Positions 41,499 through 51,621 of a stretch of DNA of 52,217 nucleotides are shown here, one piece after another. The DNA comes from a virus, in the IMG/VR virus record IMGVR_UViG_3300023179_000149, positions 1 to 52,217 of that record. The stretch is one strand, 5' to 3'. The position numbers and the translations under genes are program-made. The notes below the pieces were generated by a model. That model was not told the DNA's origin. It was given only the letters and a program-made list of their open reading frames with translations, and ran no database searches. Numbering within the stretch: position 1 is the first letter of the stretch; each line of letters starts with the position of its first letter.

Positions 41499-41897
41499 GT
41501 GATTACTTTTCAGTCTACTCCAAGTGAGGATACCATCTCCTTTGACTCTTCTAGCCCGGGTTTTAATTCTTTTGCTAGTAATTTTGATTGGTATGCAGAT
41601 CAGAATTGGGAAACAGAGGATAAAGACGGTTTTTTTACAAGTAATTTAATTTCCAATAAGTTAAGCGAAGGTGCTGTGGATAACGTTTACGCGCCGGCTC
41701 ATTACACAAAAAATGAAGATATAGAATGTATAGAAGCAATTAAAGCAGCACTTGGAACCGAAAAATTTCGTGGCTACTGTCAAGGCAATGTAATAAAGTA
41801 TGTGTGGCGTGCCGACCACAAAAACAATACTTTAGAAGATTTAAAAAAAAGCAGGTGGTATTTAGATAGACTTATTGCTTCTCATGAAAATAATTAA
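41499..41897 (+). CDS. DUF3310 family protein
   Basis: 132 residues, GTG start. The C-terminal half APAHYTKNEDIECIEAIKAA followed by FRGYCQGNVIKYVWRADHKNNTLEDLKKSRWYLDRLI is the full DUF3310 signature (P-x-HY, E-C-I-E, GN-x-x-KY-x-WR, K-x-x-x-x-x-DL-x-K). These phage proteins are sometimes annotated as nucleotide-kinase-like, without firm evidence. The N-terminal 55 residues are low-complexity and Ser/Asp/Phe-rich. Confidence 0.8.
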   Translation: MITFQSTPSEDTISFDSSSPGFNSFASNFDWYADQNWETEDKDGFFTSNLISNKLSEGAVDNVYAPAHYTKNEDIECIEAIKAALGTEKFRGYCQGNVIKYVWRADHKNNTLEDLKKSRWYLDRLIASHENN

Positions 41898-42640
41898 ATA
41901 GCTTTATTAGAGCCTAGGCAACCCTGTTCCTGGTTCCAGTAACGCCAGAAACGACGCAAAGTTTCTTGGGTAGGATCAAATTCAAGTAATTTGCGCTCTA
42001 AATACTCAACTGCTTTTACCTGATTAGGCGTACCTAAATAACTTTCTCCTATATTTAACAAGCATTGATTAAGTTTACATTTGTGTTCAAAAAATAAGGG
42101 CACTTCTTTATCGGGTGCCATGTACATATTGAGTTCAACGCGGCGACGTTCTTTTAACTTATTATCAACACCAAAATAAATTGAATTTATTAATGGGCTC
42201 CATTCCTTAATAATTAATTTTTTACTAGCATAAGAGTTTATTAATTTAAGTAAATAAGATTCTTTAAATGCGGCTAAGCCTATGCTATGCGCGTAACTTA
42301 ATAGTGCAGCTCTTTTTTTACTGTTTAAACTTACAAACACGTATGCTTGTACTTTTTCAGCAAAAGGTTTGAGATCTTCTACTAATTGATTGTTTATTTC
42401 TTTTGTTGTGGCTTTAGTATGCCAATTAACTGCATGATTTTTAATTTTTACACTGCCATAACCAATTTTATAATGATCAGATCCTTCTTCTTTATAGCAA
42501 CCAAACCGCCCGGAACCCAGATAAATTCTAGGTGTTGTATATAATTGTACTAATTTTATTGCATCTTGATTTAAAAATAAAGGTAAGGTTTCTTTATGGG
42601 ACAACAACGCTGCCGGTATAGGAGACCTCTGAGTATCCAT
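41894..42640 (-). CDS. Lysozyme-like (GH24-related) protein lacking catalytic triad
   Basis: 248 residues. HYKIGYGSVKIKNHAVNW, ATTKEINNQLVEDLKPFAEKVQAYVFV, LNSKKRAALLSYAHSIGLAAF and KESYLLKLIN line up with the GH24 endolysin at 46666 (LTIGYGHT, TITEQQAEQLLQKDL, LNQHQFDALVSFTYNVG, GESTLRKRLN). The Glu-9-Asp-6-Thr triad of that enzyme falls here on Ser43, Glu52 and Lys58. Probably a virion or tail-tip peptidoglycan-binding protein rather than a hydrolase. C-terminal half is unrecognised. Confidence 0.6.
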   Translation of the reverse strand: MDTQRSPIPAALLSHKETLPLFLNQDAIKLVQLYTTPRIYLGSGRFGCYKEEGSDHYKIGYGSVKIKNHAVNWHTKATTKEINNQLVEDLKPFAEKVQAYVFVSLNSKKRAALLSYAHSIGLAAFKESYLLKLINSYASKKLIIKEWSPLINSIYFGVDNKLKERRRVELNMYMAPDKEVPLFFEHKCKLNQCLLNIGESYLGTPNQVKAVEYLERKLLEFDPTQETLRRFWRYWNQEQGCLGSNKAI

Positions 42641-42980
42641 CTAGTTCCAAGAGGACAATGTAATTTTTTGTTGCATCTGTTACGGTAACAGCAACCGCGC
42701 CCTTACTGCGCCCATCTTTTGCTATATTGGCGTAAGTTTTATACCCCGCCGGTGCAGTAGAGCCGTTGTAAACGTCTTCTTGAAAAATCTCCATAGTGTT
42801 GACACCTGAAGAATTGTCTAATTTAACTATTAGACTGCCTGTACTGGCTGGGTTAACACGGAAGCCCCTGATATTTAAACCGGGAGTTGCGGATGCAGAC
42901 GTTGTTCCTTGGTAAGTAACTTCACTTCCCGCGTCAACAGAAAAATTGTCAAGAGTCCCTTTGATTGTTCTGGTAGGCAT
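42594..42980 (-). CDS. Beta-rich structural-like protein, 128 aa
   Basis: 128 residues of beta-strand pattern, Ser/Thr/Gly/Val-rich (LNIRGFRVNPASTGSLIVKL, AVAVTVTDATKNYIVLLELDG). Overlaps the following lysozyme-like gene by 47 bases. Resembles in composition the tandem proteins at 44282 and 44630; probably a virion decoration or fibre-associated protein. Confidence 0.6.
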   Translation of the reverse strand: MPTRTIKGTLDNFSVDAGSEVTYQGTTSASATPGLNIRGFRVNPASTGSLIVKLDNSSGVNTMEIFQEDVYNGSTAPAGYKTYANIAKDGRSKGAVAVTVTDATKNYIVLLELDGYSEVSYTGSVVVP

Positions 42981-42985
42981 GGTAA

Positions 42986-43207
42986 TTACGAGAGTTGGCT
43001 TTTTGTCAGGTAGTTAAACTTAATTTCAGCGTCTATCCCGTGTTCTTTCATGATACCAAAGAACAACTGTTTGTCCATCATTTTTTGATGAAGAATGTCA
43101 ATAAACGCTTCTTCTAGTTCATCTCTATCAAGTTGTTTTAAGCTTAGCGCGGCGGCATGTAGAGCAAACTGTGCGTCCACCGGTAGCTCTAAGGCGTTAG
43201 TGTCCAT
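42986..43207 (-). CDS. nblA: NblA-like phycobilisome degradation adaptor
   Basis: 73 residues, NblA size. LELPVDAQFALHAAALSLKQ followed by LDRDELEEAFIDILHQKMMDKQLFFGIMKEHGID matches the NblA layout: L-S-x-E-Q-Q-F near the N-terminus, a long helix pair, then Q-M-M-x-x-x-x-x-x-x-x-L-L-K at the end. NblA binds phycobiliproteins and brings them to Clp protease, dismantling the light-harvesting antenna; phage copies are known in Ma-LMM01 and in marine cyanophages. It has its own TGCTAAAAT promoter. Similarity is judged by eye. Confidence 0.6.
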   Translation of the reverse strand: MDTNALELPVDAQFALHAAALSLKQLDRDELEEAFIDILHQKMMDKQLFFGIMKEHGIDAEIKFNYLTKSQLS

Positions 43208-43391: not shown

Positions 43392-44285
43392 GTGCTTCCA
43401 AAAACCAATCCTGATAAGAGAATAAGTGCAAACACTTGCAAACCTGCTTTTAAACTACTATATTTTAAGCAACCTTACATCCAGGAAACAGTGATTGACG
43501 GCACCATAGCGACTGAGTTTATAAAGGCGGCTGTTGCTGGAGTAAGTAAAACTCAAGCAACTCGCCACTTTAAAGAAAAATATAAATTTACCAATAAAGA
43601 TATTGAGGAGCTTGTAGAATTCTGTTCTTTTAACAAAAAACCAAAACAAATTAACTATGATTTATTTTTTAATCGACCAATAACAAAAACAAAACAAGAT
43701 ATAAAATTTCCTTTTACTCAAATTTTTATACATAAGAATTTTTTATCATCAGAAACATGCGAACAACTGATAAAGATAATTAACGATGAGGCAAGGCCTT
43801 CTACAGTTGCTAATCCACATGACCGAGCTGTAGTATCCGATTATAGAACAAGTAAGACAACTGATTTAAATTATTTTTATTCATCATTCTTAAATCGGTT
43901 GGATTGGAAAATTTGTCAATTTATGGATCTGGATCCATTTATAGGCGAAACAGTGCAAGGACAAAGCTATTTACCCGGTGAGTATTATAAGGAGCATCAT
44001 GATTTCTTTCATCCTAGAACAAAAGAGTTTTCTATATATACAGAATGGATGGGGCAACGCACGTGGACTGTTATGTGCTATTTAAATGATGTAGAGACAG
44101 GAGGAGAAACTTACTTTAAACACTTAAAACTAAAGATTAAACCTGAAAAAGGAACTGCTGTTATCTGGAATAATTTATATAAAAACGGTATGCCTAATTA
44201 CAAGACACTTCATGAAGCATTACCACCAATCAGTAACAATAAATATGTAATTACTAAGTGGTTTAGGTCTTGGCCACTAATTTAG
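43392..44285 (+). CDS. 2-oxoglutarate-Fe(II) oxygenase, prolyl 4-hydroxylase-like
   Basis: 297 residues, GTG start. KEHHDFF gives the Fe ligands H-x-D; GGETYFKHLKLKIKPEKGTAVIWNN is the standard strand pair; LHEALPP supplies the distal His, and KYVITKWFR the Arg/Lys that binds 2-oxoglutarate. The N-terminal 115 residues include ATEFIKAAVAGVSKTQATRHF, an HTH-like stretch. Such oxygenases are frequent in cyanophages and may hydroxylate a virion or host protein; the target is unknown. It is rightward amid leftward genes. Confidence 0.85.
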   Translation: MLPKTNPDKRISANTCKPAFKLLYFKQPYIQETVIDGTIATEFIKAAVAGVSKTQATRHFKEKYKFTNKDIEELVEFCSFNKKPKQINYDLFFNRPITKTKQDIKFPFTQIFIHKNFLSSETCEQLIKIINDEARPSTVANPHDRAVVSDYRTSKTTDLNYFYSSFLNRLDWKICQFMDLDPFIGETVQGQSYLPGEYYKEHHDFFHPRTKEFSIYTEWMGQRTWTVMCYLNDVETGGETYFKHLKLKIKPEKGTAVIWNNLYKNGMPNYKTLHEALPPISNNKYVITKWFRSWPLI

Positions 44286-44626
44286 TTAGCCGCAATATTA
44301 AATTTAATTTTTGCAGAAGTCCCACCTTGTTCATGAAAAAAGTTAGCACGTATTTTTTTTACCGGGAATCCACTAACATTATATGCATAAGTACCGTTTG
44401 CAGTTATTTTTTCAGTACGCATTACACCAAAGTTTATGCCATCCAGACTTCCCTCTAAATTAACATCAACGTGGTTATCTATATTTTCAACTGTAGCAAT
44501 AAGTGTATAGTTACGTGTAGATAAATAATTTACAATATAAACGTCAACAGCATCAGTAGCGCCGAGTGCAGTCAATTCTGGAAAATCAAAAAATACTGTT
44601 TGCTGGTAACCTTCGAAATAACTCAT
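44282..44626 (-). CDS. Beta-sandwich-like structural protein, paralogue 1
   Basis: 114 residues. VDVNLEGSLDGINFGVMRTEKITANGTYAYNVSGFPVKKIRANF parallels residues of the next upstream protein (VVFKIEGSLDGTNYFNLNPS...NGTTFLNYIDMPLKYIRCNL). The two are adjacent, same strand and size, hence a tandem duplication. Probably a head-decoration or fibre protein. Convergent with the oxygenase gene, 4-base overlap. Confidence 0.65.
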   Translation of the reverse strand: MSYFEGYQQTVFFDFPELTALGATDAVDVYIVNYLSTRNYTLIATVENIDNHVDVNLEGSLDGINFGVMRTEKITANGTYAYNVSGFPVKKIRANFFHEQGGTSAKIKFNIAAN

Positions 44627-44629
44627 TAC

Positions 44630-44986
44630 TTATTTAGCGCCAATAACGAAAGAAACAGTTGGTGAACCTGAGGCAAATGAAACTAAATTACAACGAATAT
44701 ACTTTAACGGCATATCAATGTAATTTAAAAAAGTCGTACCGTTACTGGTAATAGTAGTATTACCAGATGGATTTAAATTAAAATAATTTGTCCCATCTAA
44801 ACTGCCCTCTATTTTAAAAACAACATTACCTCCACCAGGTATTGATGCCGTGGTAACTTGTATTAAGAAATTAGTTAAAGATGATATATTTTGTTCTGCA
44901 ACTTGAAACGTTGCCGTTGCACCTGCTGTTGAAAGGGCTTCGGCGTTAAAAAATACGCTATCAATAAAGCTGGGATCAAAGCTCAT
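44630..44986 (-). CDS. Beta-sandwich-like structural protein, paralogue 2
   Basis: 118 residues, same repeat as the downstream gene: EGSLDG-[TI]-N-[YF] followed by NGT and a PLKYIR turn. Ser/Thr/Gly-rich beta pattern, no signal peptide. Three bases separate the two copies. EGSLDG repeats are common in phage and bacterial surface proteins, but I cannot name a family. Confidence 0.65.
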   Translation of the reverse strand: MSFDPSFIDSVFFNAEALSTAGATATFQVAEQNISSLTNFLIQVTTASIPGGGNVVFKIEGSLDGTNYFNLNPSGNTTITSNGTTFLNYIDMPLKYIRCNLVSFASGSPTVSFVIGAK

Positions 44987-44989
44987 GAT

Positions 44990-45460
44990 TTATTTTTTGT
45001 AATCTAAGTTGGATTTTAGCAGCCACTGATTTTTTTTATGCACCCTGGCCCGTTCAACCCCAAGATCTAAGGTTAGCTGATCTCCAATAAGATTTGACTC
45101 AGTAATTAAATTATTGAAATTACAAGCAAGTGTATCGTGATTTGCAGCTATCTGGAGAATAATTTTGTCTTGGTTAAAACAATCTTCAAACGGTAACTCA
45201 GGCATATTTGAATATGTTAAATCCATTACTGTTTTGGGAGTGGCAATGCCTAAAGAACGAATATGTTCAGCAATTGTATCTATGCCTTCCTCCATTTCAC
45301 GATATATTTTTTCTGTCAACAAATGAATTTCATAAAATTTACCCCCCATTAGCCCCCAATGAACAAGCTGGGTTTGGTGGTAAACATTTACAGAATCTCT
45401 TAAGCACTGCACCAGAAGGCAATAGCAAGAAGTTTTTTTATCGGTTAGATCTTTTACCAT
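44990..45460 (-). CDS. dps: Dps-like ferritin (DNA-protecting, iron-storing)
   Basis: 156 residues, usual Dps length. VYHQTQLVHWGLMGGKFYEIHLLTEKIYREMEEGIDTIAEHIRSLG carries all ferroxidase ligands with Dps spacing: H34, H46, D61 and E65 (Listeria Dps H31, H43, D58, E62), then the TPKT turn. Dps makes a 12-subunit shell that binds DNA and oxidises Fe(II). N-terminal CYCLLVQC is unusual. It lies within the structural cluster, so it may be a virion component or an auxiliary stress gene. Confidence 0.8.
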   Translation of the reverse strand: MVKDLTDKKTSCYCLLVQCLRDSVNVYHQTQLVHWGLMGGKFYEIHLLTEKIYREMEEGIDTIAEHIRSLGIATPKTVMDLTYSNMPELPFEDCFNQDKIILQIAANHDTLACNFNNLITESNLIGDQLTLDLGVERARVHKKNQWLLKSNLDYKK

Positions 45461-45465
45461 TTAAA

Positions 45466-45738
45466 TTACCAAAGGTGTGAGCACGCCCAGTATTTGGGCG
45501 TATTTTTATCCATAGGTTTATCACATCCCATTCTAGCCCTGAAATTTTTTCGTCGATCTTTATCTTTATGTTGAGTATAGTCCTCATAGCCCCTTCTTCC
45601 GTAACGAACTATGGCCTCTTTCCCGTCATGACAGGACTTAACAACCCATTTATGGGTATCTCCAGCTGGGGCACGTTGTGGTTTATTACACCTCATGTGC
45701 TCTTTTGATAAACGCTTAGCTTTAGCGTGATCTGCCAT
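45466..45738 (-). CDS. Conserved viral protein, DUF5754-like
   Basis: 90 residues, very basic. HKWVVKSCHDGKEAIVRYGRRGYEDYTQHKD followed by RRKNFRARMGCDKPMDKNTPKYWACSHLW contains the C-x-x-x-x-x-x-x-x-R-x-G, F-R-A-R, KYW-x-C-x-x-W pattern of a family shared by phages and giant viruses (I recall DUF5754). Function unknown. Five bases after the Dps-like gene's upstream neighbour. Confidence 0.7.
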   Translation of the reverse strand: MADHAKAKRLSKEHMRCNKPQRAPAGDTHKWVVKSCHDGKEAIVRYGRRGYEDYTQHKDKDRRKNFRARMGCDKPMDKNTPKYWACSHLW

Positions 45739-45740
45739 AT

Positions 45741-45923
45741 CTAAATTCGACCGGCTAGATTGGTTGCTACATCTTGAGACACGGCACCTTTATCCGCAAT
45801 CTCAAATGGGTCTGGCCTTCTGTAAGAATTTAATTTTTGAACATAGCCAGCAAGGAACTCAGATGGGGCCATTGTTGGTTGTTGTCTATCAAGTTGCAAT
45901 CCATCCAACATATGCATCCTCAC
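45741..45923 (-). CDS. Small hypothetical protein, 60 aa
   Basis: 60 residues, polar, no motif recognised (MAPSEFLAGYVQKLNSYRRPDPFEI). Overlaps the HNH gene upstream by 35 bases and is 2 bases from the next gene. Gene status is supported by packing only. Confidence 0.45.
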   Translation of the reverse strand: MRMHMLDGLQLDRQQPTMAPSEFLAGYVQKLNSYRRPDPFEIADKGAVSQDVATNLAGRI

Positions 45924-46299
45924 AAATATATGGAATAGCCTGATAAGCGGCGGCTAGGTTTAAGGACTTTGGTTTTTGCTCTGTCCATTCTTTAATCTTA
46001 TCAGCCCTTTCTTTAGTGTATTTAGGATTGTCTTCTGTGTACCATAAGTCAAGTTTTTGGGATCCTTTAGAGGAATTGCAAGAACAGCAACAACAAGCAA
46101 GATTATTTCTTGAATTATGACCACCCTTATGTTTTGGAATAATGTGATCGATTGTAGCGGTATTATGACAGAGTTGTTTTTCACAATAAGCACAATTCCA
46201 ATTCCACGCTTCAAAAATACTTTGACGAAATTTTTTTCGAGCAAATTTTGGAGTAAGGACAATTAGTTCAACTAAGAGTTCGTTCTCAGTGTGAAACAC
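45889..46299 (-). CDS. HNH endonuclease
   Basis: 136 residues, GTG start. CAYCEKQL...TIDHIIPKHKGGHNSRNNLACCCCSCNSSKG is a complete HNH motif with the DHI-x-P catalytic His, N of GGHNSRNNL and C-x-x-C pairs binding structural zinc. A short, free-standing HNH nuclease; in phages these act as homing endonucleases or in packaging. A run of four Cys (LACCCCSC) is unusual. Confidence 0.85.
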   Translation of the reverse strand: MFHTENELLVELIVLTPKFARKKFRQSIFEAWNWNCAYCEKQLCHNTATIDHIIPKHKGGHNSRNNLACCCCSCNSSKGSQKLDLWYTEDNPKYTKERADKIKEWTEQKPKSLNLAAAYQAIPYICEDAYVGWIAT

Positions 46300-46395: not shown

Positions 46396-46614
46396 CTAAT
46401 CTGGACTCATAACTTGACATGCTTCTATAATTTGTTTATTGGCCTTTTCTTCTAACTGTTGCTTTAAAATATTAAGAACTTCTAAAGCCCCCTGAACCTT
46501 TAAATAGCCTTCTTTACTAGAAATTAAATTGGCCTCTGCTGTTCTAATTTCTGACGTTAAAGATTTTAGTTGCTCTTGTAATCCTTTCTCCAGCTCTAAT
46601 ACGGTTTCAATCAT
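46396..46614 (-). CDS. Coiled-coil protein, 72 aa
   Basis: 72 residues, almost one continuous heptad-like coiled coil (LELEKGLQEQLKSLTSEIRT, LEVLNILKQQLEEKANKQ). Lies directly downstream of the endolysin gene. Could be a virion or lysis-associated protein, but has no membrane anchor. Confidence 0.55.
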   Translation of the reverse strand: MIETVLELEKGLQEQLKSLTSEIRTAEANLISSKEGYLKVQGALEVLNILKQQLEEKANKQIIEACQVMSPD

Positions 46615-46665: not shown

Positions 46666-47916
46666 TTACCAACCGTTTCCCTTGAAGATCCAACCCCAGC
46701 CATTGGCACAGCCGCCATAAAACAAACGTGGGTTTAGGTTTTTAAAACTATAGTGCTTATTTTTACCTGCGCCGGGGGACTGGTTTTCCCATATGCCATT
46801 AACCAAATCCAAGTCTCCGTAGGGGTCCTGAACCAGCCAGTAGGTATCACTGTAACCAGAGATAGTTATGAAGTGTCCGCCGCCACGTGGGGCGTCTACG
46901 GTGCCATGATGAAGTATGCCCACGGCCACGGGTTTACCTTTATCAATCTGATCTTTAATATCCTGTTCTTCTAGGTTTGTACAAAATTTTGCAAATACAT
47001 TAAGAGCTTCTAACGCTTTATAATGCGCGTCCCTAGTGGTTGTATCACCAAAACGGTCAACAATTTTAAAATAATCTGTATCATCTTTTATTCCTTTTAC
47101 GTTGAGATACTTTAAACACATTGCAATTGAACTTGTTTGACATTGGCGCCAACCCTCAGGTCCGTTATCTTTCTGATCAAAGAAAGGAAAGTTACGTAAA
47201 TAGCGCAAATCTCCGTCTTGTGCATAAGGATATATCTTCGGCGTTAATCCACTCCAATGGTCATCGTAAATCCACCATCTACCCATTTTGTTTCCCATTT
47301 CTAACAGAGTATGTTTATCTTTCTTCTCTAAAATTTTATTACCTGGGTAAGTGCGACCCTGATAAACCTTTGCTTTACTGTCGTTAGGAAGTACGTCGGC
47401 AGGCTTGGGTTCTTTTTTAAACCAAGTCTGCTGAAGAGAAGTAACACTAATCGTTTTTATTTCTTTTTTTTGATTATTAACCATACAAAATAACTTAATT
47501 TCTTCTGTTCGACGCCTTATTAAGCCAGGTATACTCTGACCGTCGCCGCCTTTTGTCCACTTTATTAATTCCTGTGTTGCTACAGTATTGGTATCCTCTC
47601 CGTTATTTAAACGTTTGCGTAAAGTAGATTCACCTAACGCACTGGCGCCGACATTATAAGTAAAACTTACAAGTGCATCAAATTGATGTTGATTTAAATT
47701 TATTAAAATTAATTTATTTACTGCTTGTTCAAAAGTATTTAAATCTTTTTGAAGTAGTTGTTCGGCCTGTTGTTCTGTAATTGTCTGGCCAACATATACA
47801 TCATCTCCGGTATGGCCGTACCCTATGGTTAAAACACCGACTACATCATAATAAGAGGTTAGCCTAAGGCCTTCAAATTCTTTTATTAATTTTAAGCCTT
47901 CTGCAGATGTTTTCAC
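46666..47916 (-). CDS. Bifunctional endolysin: GH24 lysozyme, SH3-like, C39-like peptidase
   Basis: 416 residues, three parts. Residues 1-145 are a GH24 lysozyme with the T4-type triad Glu15, Asp24, Thr30 (FEGLRLTSYYDVVGVLTIGYGHT). Residues about 155-230 form an SH3-like region (TWFKKEPKPADVLPNDSKAKVYQG). Residues 243-400 are a C39-like cysteine peptidase with Gln258-Cys259, His348 (GGGHFITISGY) and Asp364 (VQDPYGD). It would cut glycan strands and peptide bridges at the end of infection. No signal peptide, so a holin is needed. Confidence 0.85.
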   Translation of the reverse strand: MKTSAEGLKLIKEFEGLRLTSYYDVVGVLTIGYGHTGDDVYVGQTITEQQAEQLLQKDLNTFEQAVNKLILINLNQHQFDALVSFTYNVGASALGESTLRKRLNNGEDTNTVATQELIKWTKGGDGQSIPGLIRRRTEEIKLFCMVNNQKKEIKTISVTSLQQTWFKKEPKPADVLPNDSKAKVYQGRTYPGNKILEKKDKHTLLEMGNKMGRWWIYDDHWSGLTPKIYPYAQDGDLRYLRNFPFFDQKDNGPEGWRQCQTSSIAMCLKYLNVKGIKDDTDYFKIVDRFGDTTTRDAHYKALEALNVFAKFCTNLEEQDIKDQIDKGKPVAVGILHHGTVDAPRGGGHFITISGYSDTYWLVQDPYGDLDLVNGIWENQSPGAGKNKHYSFKNLNPRLFYGGCANGWGWIFKGNGW

Positions 47917-47935: not shown

Positions 47936-48502
47936 CTAAACTATACCAGAAGTCGTCGTGCTTGAGTTAAACGAAAGATAATCTACACCACCAGAACCAG
48001 TGACGTAATCTGATGTACCAGAAGCAATTACTGAGTCTGACGTAACTAAATTGTTACTAGTGCCTTGTACTGGCCAAGAAGAATACTCTTGCGAAGTGAT
48101 AAAATTAGCCAAATCATCTGTTGTTTTTGTAGCTTTAATTTTTGAAACTTTAAGCCCTGATGCAGTGCGTACGTTTTCCCTCCAGGTTTTAACGGCGGGG
48201 TCCGCCTCTTTTCCATTGTCAACAGAACGGACAATCATCCAATCCGTTGGGCTAAGTAAAGTATTAGCTGTATATCTAGTTTGATCCACCCATTGAATAA
48301 CTAGCTGGTCGTGATCTTTAGGTATTCCTGGAGCCCAATAAAATCTTTGATCATAGTAGGGAGGATCAGGAACCTCAGTAATTCCAATTGCTTTTCGGTC
48401 TTCGGGAGAGGCCAATCGGATCCAGTTTGAAGGGTACTGGGTTCCATCCGGCGTTACAAATGGAGAATCTGGAGATATGGGCTTACCGTTTAAAAGAAAC
48501 AT
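47936..48502 (-). CDS. Tail-fibre-assembly-like phage protein, 188 aa
   Basis: 188 residues. MFLLNGKPISPDSPFVTPDGTQYPSNWIRLASPEDRKAIGI followed by DQRFYWAPGIPKDHD is typical of a cyanophage protein group related to tail-fibre assembly or tail-associated proteins (I recall DUF4376-like neighbours). C-terminus is Ser/Thr-rich. Ends the leftward lysis/structure cluster; function not proven. Confidence 0.6.
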   Translation of the reverse strand: MFLLNGKPISPDSPFVTPDGTQYPSNWIRLASPEDRKAIGITEVPDPPYYDQRFYWAPGIPKDHDQLVIQWVDQTRYTANTLLSPTDWMIVRSVDNGKEADPAVKTWRENVRTASGLKVSKIKATKTTDDLANFITSQEYSSWPVQGTSNNLVTSDSVIASGTSDYVTGSGGVDYLSFNSSTTTSGIV

Positions 48503-48629: not shown

Positions 48630-49481
48630 ATGACAACATTACTTGAAGCCTGGGAGCAATTCAAAGCCGAAAGAGCTATTGCCCTGTGTCCAACCAGCCT
48701 GGTTGCAGACTACAAGCAAGTGGGCAAATGGTTAAATAAATGCCCAATCACAGATTTAAATGAGGGAAGAAAAATATTAACATGGATATTAAGTCAAAAA
48801 CCTGTTAAATCTAGTCGGCGTGTGACAATGTACATAAAATCGTTATATCGTTGGGCATCTAGTGAGGATATAAAATTAATTGATAAAAATCCAATTGTTA
48901 GTTTTAAAATGCCAAAACCACCGCAAGAAGATGTTGATATTATTGTAATTCCACGGCAAGAAACAGAGTTAGTTTTGAAAGCACTTGGATCAAGACAATC
49001 ACGTAACGGAGCCAACTGGGCATTTTATTCTGAGTTTATGTTGCAAACTGCAATGCGCACCGGAGAGGTACGCGCACTTAAATGGGAAGATATAAAAGAA
49101 AATAAAATCCTTGTACATAGCAACTATACTCTTACTCACGGGTACAAGGATTCGACAAAAACAAATAGAAAACGATGGGTTCCTTTGAATAACAGGTGCC
49201 AAGAAATTATGTCTGCTGTATCAAAAACCAATGAATATATTTTCCCCTGGAATAGGTATGCATTTCAAAGTTATTTTTATGATCGAATGAGAGAATTACA
49301 TGAAAGTAAACTTATCCAAAACAGGTATAGGCCATATGACTTACGGCATACTGCAATTAGCCGGTGGATCGAGGCCCAGATTCCAGTAGCTCAAGTTGCA
49401 AACTGGGCAGGTAATAGTTCCGAGGTTATTTGGAAGCATTATGTAAACGTTACTCAGGAATACGAAATGCCGATTTTATAA
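48630..49481 (+). CDS. int: Tyrosine recombinase / integrase
   Basis: 283 residues. N-terminal SAM-like core-binding domain (1-95) and catalytic domain: Arg143 in AMRTGEVRALKWEDI, Lys177 in STKTNRKRWVPL, then YDLRHT with Arg239 (the box II His is Tyr236), the second His position is Asn262 in WAGNSS, and nucleophile Tyr271 in WKHYVN. The Arg-Lys-Arg-Tyr core is intact. It would integrate the phage genome; no att site or repressor is evident nearby. Convergent with the gene at 49489. Confidence 0.9.
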   Translation: MTTLLEAWEQFKAERAIALCPTSLVADYKQVGKWLNKCPITDLNEGRKILTWILSQKPVKSSRRVTMYIKSLYRWASSEDIKLIDKNPIVSFKMPKPPQEDVDIIVIPRQETELVLKALGSRQSRNGANWAFYSEFMLQTAMRTGEVRALKWEDIKENKILVHSNYTLTHGYKDSTKTNRKRWVPLNNRCQEIMSAVSKTNEYIFPWNRYAFQSYFYDRMRELHESKLIQNRYRPYDLRHTAISRWIEAQIPVAQVANWAGNSSEVIWKHYVNVTQEYEMPIL

Positions 49482-50541: not shown

Positions 50542-51621
50542 GTGACCGCTTCAATTGCCTTACAAAAGCAAACAAACCCATGGCAACAATTTTGCCGTTG
50601 GGTAACCTCAACTGAAAATCGGTTGTACGTGGGTTGGTTTGGAGTCCTAATGATTCCAACACTTCTTGCTGCCGCCACCTGCTTTACCATAGCTTTTATT
50701 GGTGCCCCTCCTGTCGATATAGATGGGATTCGTGAGCCTGTATCTGGCTCTTTACTTTATGGAAACAACATTATTTCAGGAGCCGTTGTCCCCTCCTCAA
50801 ATGCAATCGGATTACATTTCTATCCAATTTGGGAAGCTGCTTCCCTTGATGAATGGCTCTACAACGGTGGGCCATTCCAGCTCGTCGTATTCCACTTCCT
50901 CATTGGCATCTTTGCTTACCTGGGACGCGAATGGGAACTTAGCTATCGATTAGGAATGCGCCCCTGGATCTGCATTGCCTACAGCGCCCCTGTGGCTGCT
51001 GCATCTGCAGTGTTCCTTGTGTATCCCTTTGGTCAGGGTTCCTTCTCTGATGCAATGCCCCTGGGTATTTCAGGCACCTTCAACTACATGTTGGTGTTCC
51101 AAGCTGAGCACAACATTCTTATGCACCCCTTCCACATGCTTGGAGTAGTTGGTGTATTCGGTGGATCACTTTTTAGTGCAATGCATGGTTCGCTTGTAAC
51201 GTCTTCATTGGTTCGGGAAACCACAGAAAACGAATCGCACAATTATGGTTACAAGTTTGGCCAAGAAGAAGAGACCTACAACATTGTGGCCGCCCACGGT
51301 TATTTTGGACGCCTTATTTTTCAATATGCATCTTTCAATAACTCACGTTCGCTTCATTTCTTCTTAGCTGCTTGGCCAGTAGTTGGCATTTGGTTCACTG
51401 CTTTAGGTGTCTCTACAATGGCATTTAATCTTAACGGATTTAATTTCAACCAGTCAATTGTTGACAGTCAGAATCGTGTCGTCCAAACCTGGGCAGACAT
51501 TTTGAACCGTGCTGGACTTGGCTTAGAAGTTATGCATGAAAGAAATGCTCACAACTTTCCATTAGATCTTGCTGCTTCTGAGTTAACCTCTGTTGCGCTA
51601 ATTGCACCTTCTATTGGTTAA
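50542..51621 (+). CDS. psbA: Photosystem II D1 protein
   Basis: 359 residues, GTG start; this start makes residue numbers match the standard D1. All functional residues are present: TyrZ Y161, H190, D170, E189, H198, H215, H252, S264, H272, H332, E333, H337, D342, A344. Position 130 is Glu, as in the high-light D1 form. Five transmembrane helices. The gene is visibly less AT-rich than its neighbours, consistent with host origin and high expression. It replaces damaged host D1 during infection. Own promoter and terminator. Confidence 0.98.

Follow-up and report, generated by a model that had tools for sequence, protein, structure and literature searches.

A gene for a predicted Dps-type mini-ferritin, on the minus strand of a viral contig (44990..45460) and among genes for lysis and virion proteins, raises the question of what a phage might gain by making such a protein at this place in its genome. 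The window (the whole stretch of DNA analyzed, 52,217 nt) is a linear IMG/VR contig carrying psbA (PHROG 182). S-EIV1, an Arctic Synechococcus phage, was the only record with a primase match covering at least 80%; protein identities between it and the window are 42% for DNA polymerase, 36% for primase, 61% for ThyX, 40% for an HNH endonuclease, and 34% for a DUF5754 protein. A lysozyme and several small genes are also common to both, and the lysis blocks are collinear. The S-EIV1 HNH ortholog is found at 69660-70022 and its DUF5754 ortholog at 72729-73034 (E = 8e-16), the latter likewise beside an HNH/virion block. On these comparisons the window phage is assigned to an S-EIV1-like cyanophage lineage, with S-EIV1 as its nearest isolate; its host was presumably a picocyanobacterium.

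Identity and predicted iron site

The open reading frame has an ATG start and encodes 156 aa. It matches the Pfam ferritin profile PF00210 at 31.2 bits, above the cut-off of 24.5 (E = 2.5e-7), and PHROG 3636, “DNA binding protein” (E = 6e-16); its best sequence match in the PDB is the Pseudomonas aeruginosa Dps PA0962 (8ff9, E = 2.8e-15). An AlphaFold2 monomer model built with 26 phage sequences (mean pLDDT 88.8) has the four-helix-bundle fold of a Dps subunit, with long helices at residues 2-36, 40-70, 97-125, and 128-150, and a short one at 78-81. When this model was compared to the PDB with Foldseek, all 50 matches listed were of the Dps/Dpr/NapA type, PA0962 again being the best (TM 0.83); a classic ferritin or bacterioferritin is for this reason not favored.

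In an alignment with PA0962, H34, H46 (+12), D61 (+27), and E65 (+31) fall on H37, H49, D64, and E68. Those are the protein ligands reported for the di-iron site of PA0962, which by the same account uses only these four conserved ligands (PMC10002758). W35, beside the first His, aligns with W38, and D132 and E136 align with D134 and Q138 of the iron pore (pore roles as given in PMC10002758). Translated in all six frames, the window has a single instance of the spacing H-x11-H-x14-D-x3-E; among 200,000 shuffled versions of the Dps protein, 155 have it. At +16, which we take to be the site of a fifth carboxylate (Asp in E. coli-type Dps), the window protein has a Glu aligned with PA0962 E53.

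These features are also those that the family has kept. In an alignment of 54 full-length sequences (out of 56 distinct window-type Dps, the two left out being fragments shorter than 150 aa), the four ligands, W35, and D132 are invariant, and the pore residue E136 is Glu in 52 and Asp in two. The +16 site is more variable (27 Glu, 23 Gly, 2 Gln, 2 Asn), and the 25 members with Gly or Asn may bind iron weakly at the second site. A broader alignment of 28 phage Dps, with those of S-EIV1, S-SRM01, and Gilson among them, has only 11 invariant columns, and these include all four ligands; the chance of such a placement would be 1.4e-5 if columns were random. The window gene has a dN/dS of 0.011 against one relative (L003) and 0.028 against another (L008), at dS of 0.5-0.6, most more-distant pairs being saturated; the family is under strong purifying selection. 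A chance open reading frame is rejected on the profile, the fold, the selection, and the ligand spacing.

The earlier note, made from the sequence alone, had proposed a Dps-like ferritin with all four ferroxidase ligands at Dps spacing. Both points are borne out, and on the defining features checked (family profile, predicted fold, ligands, Trp, and pore residues) the product is classed as a Dps: a new family within a known kind, the phage-encoded Dps. It shares the four ligands, the Trp, and the pore Asp with PA0962 at about 28% identity. Unlike PA0962, it is phage-borne in a presumably late operon, and lacks most of the Tyr network (a radical trap at the dimer interface), with V24, V78, and L81 in place of Y27, Y81, and Y84; its own Y27 aligns with PA0962 Y30, but is variable in the family. 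With a net charge of -4 and a pI of 5.8, the window Dps is acidic, and it has no long basic tail; tail-driven DNA binding is not expected, and DNA binding is probably not needed.

Two other sequence features were noted. A CxC motif (C12, C14; residues 12-14, window 45419-45427, minus strand) is present in 29 of the 54 proteins and lost in the other clade; it is accompanied by an invariant C19. There is also a conserved family-specific stretch, R-x-R-V-H-K-K-N-Q-W (residues 137-146, window 45023-45052, minus strand), more basic than its PA0962 counterpart.

Position among lysis and virion genes

The Dps gene is closely packed with its neighbors on the minus strand, starting 5 bp past a DUF5754 gene (45466..45738, 90 aa; PF19058, E = 3e-11) and ending 3 bp ahead of a gene for a small beta-sandwich protein of 118 aa (44630..44986). 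The latter has a predicted jelly-roll fold (AlphaFold2, pLDDT 87.5), like those of phage cement, tail, and prophage YomS/XepA proteins; its closest structural neighbors (VIA Z) are prophage YomS (10.6), the baseplate of Klebsiella phage KP1 (10.4), XepA (10.4), and a Bordetella phage jellyroll (9.7). These neighbors hint at a virion role without proving it. A paralog of 114 aa, recognized by alignment to it, follows (44282..44626).

Upstream in the operon, and on the same strand, are an HNH endonuclease (45889..46299, 136 aa; PF14279/PF01844), a small conserved protein of 72 aa (46396..46614) found in 49 Dps loci and in all of them on the same strand, an endolysin of 416 aa with phage lysozyme and C39-like peptidase domains (46666..47916; Pfam, and PHROG 7 at E = 3e-61), and a 188-aa protein with a weak tail-fibre-assembly match (47936..48502; PHROG 4912, E = 5e-4). 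Downstream there are genes for a 73-aa protein also seen in relatives (42986..43207), a 128-aa protein kept in both Dps-bearing and Dps-lacking relatives (42594..42980), and a second lysozyme-like protein (41894..42640; PF00959, E = 2e-12), again on the minus strand. A 2OG-Fe(II) oxygenase gene (43392..44285; PF13640, E = 4e-15) lies inside the block on the plus strand. Beyond the lysis block, an integrase-like gene (48630-49481) and psbA (50542-51621) are also on the plus strand, opposite to it. A perfect inverted repeat with 6-bp arms and a 5-base loop is found at 45484-45500, near the end of the DUF5754 gene and just ahead of the Dps start.

In 73 loci with a window-type Dps, the flanking genes of this block are always on the same strand (HNH in 60 of 60, DUF5754 in 62 of 62, lysozyme in 63 of 63). 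Several of these relatives have additional genes, spanning as much as some 5 kb, either immediately downstream of Dps or downstream of the 118-aa gene. This variable cassette, which follows Dps or separates the two beta-sandwich genes (L020, L022, L025, L027, L032, L035, L038, and L039; the window itself has none at 44282-44986), includes genes for collagen-like tail fibres (L022, L039), head decoration (L038), and a glycosyltransferase (L022). In five loci (L020 and L029-L032) the next gene after Dps encodes a large protein (896-978 aa) and starts 65-69 bp on; in L020 and L032, the two tested, it matches PHROG 5838, “virion structural protein,” at E values down to 1e-250.

In the window, the Dps neighbors are lysozymes, the HNH endonuclease, the two small beta proteins, and the weak tail-fibre-assembly match. 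That the gene lies in a phage structural cluster, as had been claimed, is nevertheless right, mostly because the gene after Dps in relatives is often one for a virion structural or fibre protein. A better description of the setting would be a late virion-and-lysis operon with a variable fibre cassette, its probable lateness being judged from gene content.

Distribution and descent

A close-peptide search found window-type Dps in 74 viral contigs; in cellular genomes the same close-peptide patterns picked out 34 stretches, none of which was confirmed. Prevalence was gauged with the neighboring second lysozyme gene, a marker independent of Dps. Among the window's nearest relatives (the best 80 of 294 lysozyme matches) Dps is present in 38 of 40 spanning loci, or 35 of 37 under the slightly different rule for spanning used in a second scan. 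That scan, seeded on a Dps-less locus, gave 54 of 75 spanning loci without Dps (the best 80 of 228 matches). Pooled, the two have Dps in 52 of 107 spanning loci (best 80 of 294 plus best 80 of 228), not an unbiased frequency, given the restriction to the best 80 matches in each and the Dps-less second seed. The first scan had pointed to a universal core gene, which the second rejects: window-type Dps is near-universal in the window's own subclade, and absent from another clade. On a tree of 84 distinct lysozymes from the 107 spanning loci (45 with Dps, 39 without), its presence requires two changes, against a mean of 28 when shuffled; it is therefore passed down along with the phage, and has seldom been gained or lost. 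No ferritin-family gene was found in 11 records (39-87 kb) of Dps-lacking relatives.

Cyanobacterial Dps are of the same broad type and have the same ligands as the window protein, and 111 of 292 cyanobacterial genomes have a match to the A2 profile; pairwise identity, however, is 34% at best. The phylogeny against host Dps that the earlier note had suggested as a check was calculated with the 37 of 52 cyanobacterial ferritin-family loci that have the Dps motif, 15 being left out. In it the phage family forms a single clade (100/100) whose stem is very long and whose link to cyanobacterial Dps is loose; the S-EIV1, S-SRM01, Iacchus, and Gilson proteins fall outside, on very long branches, which make the deep placement of the clade unsure. 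An old acquisition is indicated by these sequence relationships. Recent capture of a host gene is rejected, on the low identity to cyanobacterial Dps, the lack of cellular relatives by close-peptide patterns, and the single clade.

A sister branch of the lineage has a Dps of its own. The S-EIV1 protein (AHV82153.1, “DNA-binding ferritin-like protein,” 184 aa; L078:18622-19173, minus strand) has the same ligands as the window Dps at 20% identity, but unlike it has a proline-rich N-terminal extension and is encoded beside a sulfate adenylyltransferase gene, outside the virion/lysis block. Dps of this type are found in 50 viral contigs (L269-L318). Window-type Dps was found in none of 20 S-EIV1-type records, which may be fragments; the A2 profile matches eight of them weakly (32-35 bits), in every case at the record's own S-EIV1-type gene. 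Each of eight window-type records, which may also be fragments, has one ferritin gene. Two branches of one widespread cyanophage lineage thus carry different Dps at different genome positions, each in tens of contigs, and a third branch carries none. This pattern points to repeated selection for iron or peroxide control in cyanobacterial infection, and provides natural pairs with and without the gene.

Viral Dps as such are already known. They are in print for Lactobacillus phages (PMC6669764); gut “Gratiaviridae” and 36 further phage genomes are also reported to have them (PMC8008677), and a DPS-domain protein, gp67, is described in Kuravirus SU10 (PMC4281155). The Dps of S-SRM01 is matched by 141 of 50,697 phage records, and Dps-bearing phages include Kuravirus and phages of Lactobacillus, Streptomyces, Aeromonas, and Synechococcus. 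Together with the 74 window-type and 50 S-EIV1-type contigs, this does not agree with the earlier suggestion that phage Dps genes are rare. Many of the S-SRM01 matches are named “DNA-binding protein” or “integrase”; the latter name, on Dps-like genes of many E. coli Kuravirus-like records, has the look of an annotation error copied from record to record. Free-standing Dps nearer to cellular ones are found in another 80 viral contigs. In five viral contigs (L459-L463) the Dps is 62% identical to a cyanobacterial Dps, possibly a recent host-derived copy or cellular contamination.

The other phage Dps (those of S-SRM01, SU10 gp67, Lactobacillus phage Iacchus, Streptomyces phage Gilson, and the “Gratiaviridae”) have in common with the window Dps that they are phage-encoded, but where compared are at most 27% identical to it. 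In S-EIV1, Gilson, Iacchus, and SU10 the gene is set among metabolic, tRNA, or DNA-metabolism genes; in S-SRM01 a porin gene is close by and a gene for a chaperone-domain protein lies at a distance of about 1 kb, a setting of no obvious class. The late virion/lysis setting sets the window-type family apart from these. Among openly licensed papers, nothing on this family was found in the literature on phage Dps. What is unusual for a viral Dps is its placement among virion and lysis genes, and its long conservation in one lineage.

Candidate functions

The reading we favor, as a reasonably probable one, is that the window protein is a Dps ferroxidase, made late, whose removal of Fe(II) and peroxide spares phage DNA. 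Twelve subunits would assemble into a hollow shell, with ferroxidase sites where they meet; produced together with virion and lysis proteins, it would oxidize Fe(II), using H2O2 by preference like PA0962, and store the Fe(III). Replicating and newly packaged phage DNA would then suffer less hydroxyl-radical damage while iron and peroxide are being set free by the dying cyanobacterium. PA0962 is reported to use H2O2 to oxidize Fe(II), and a mutant deleted for it to be sensitive to peroxide (PMC10002758). Since the phage Dps has the same ligands, Trp, and pore, it most likely has the same chemistry, and protection from iron-driven radicals is its likeliest function. Arguments against this are the Gly or Asn at +16 in 25 of the 54 proteins, the poor conservation of the PA0962 Tyr radical trap, the failure of psbA carriage to follow that of Dps, and the existence of whole subclades without a detectable ferritin gene (the 11 records of 39-87 kb described above). 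The late-operon position, so different from those of Dps in S-EIV1, Gilson, Iacchus, and SU10, might also signal another role.

The earlier note had placed such protection in a photosynthesizing host, a link that now seems weak. psbA is present in two of eight records with window-type Dps, four of eight lacking it (Fisher p 0.61), and none of six of the S-EIV1 type. A tie between Dps and psbA is thus unsupported, and guarding psbA-driven photosynthesis is therefore an insufficient reason for carrying the gene.

The late-operon setting makes it a directly testable question whether the ferritin cage is a part of the virion. It could be inside or on the particle (in the head interior, as a decoration, or at a fibre base), guarding the packaged genome or carrying iron to the next host; we consider this unlikely, although the most interesting of the alternatives. 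In its favor, the gene has beta-sandwich and virion genes beside it, among them in some relatives the large next gene, with its PHROG 5838 matches. In SU10, gp67 is reported to have been detected by mass spectrometry in concentrated phage (35.8% coverage, 6 peptides), but the sample as described was PEG-concentrated rather than CsCl-purified, and also contained polymerase and other non-virion proteins (PMC4281155). Three BFVD entries with Dps-fold matches (A0A6J7XDU5, A0A6J7WIS1, and A0A6J7WPK9; 333-763 aa) are named “Prohead protease,” and are possible fusions of Dps with a capsid-assembly protease. Such names are in favor of a virion role, but fusion to virion proteins was not found in the viral loci scanned: the Dps reading frames are of 200 aa or less in 80 of 80. 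No packaging signal was recognized in the window Dps, and with its net charge of -4 it would make a poor DNA-packing protein.

A related idea, to which we give somewhat less credence, is that the cage is co-expressed with and docked to the adjacent beta-sandwich or fibre proteins, traveling with the particle as a scavenger of iron and peroxide. The genome would then be shielded while the particle is in sunlit water, or over the first few minutes of an infection.

It is doubtful that the protein serves instead to scavenge iron, buffering it so as to starve host or competitor processes, or supplying iron enzymes such as the neighboring 2OG-Fe(II) oxygenase. Cyanobacterial cells are iron-rich, and the oxygenase gene is two genes away on the other strand. 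However, the same oxygenase is kept in the same place in many Dps-less loci, so that the two are not obligate partners, and a tie between them is unsupported.

Two further roles seem very improbable as alternatives to protective iron oxidation. The protein might cut DNA with divalent cations and help to degrade the host chromosome, as its closest solved relative, PA0962, is reported to cleave DNA in vitro (PMC10002758) and the family has an invariant basic stretch of its own (R137, R139, K142-K143), but identity to PA0962 is only about 28%, and a late position is a poor fit for host-DNA breakdown. Equally far-fetched is a Dps fold kept as a scaffold after losing its iron chemistry: the +16 carboxylate is lost in 27 of the 54 proteins, the PA0962 Tyr network is mostly gone, and the stem branch in the Dps tree is very long, but the four ligands, W35, and the pore residue D132 are invariant in all 54, and PA0962 itself is described as relying on only those four ligands (PMC10002758).
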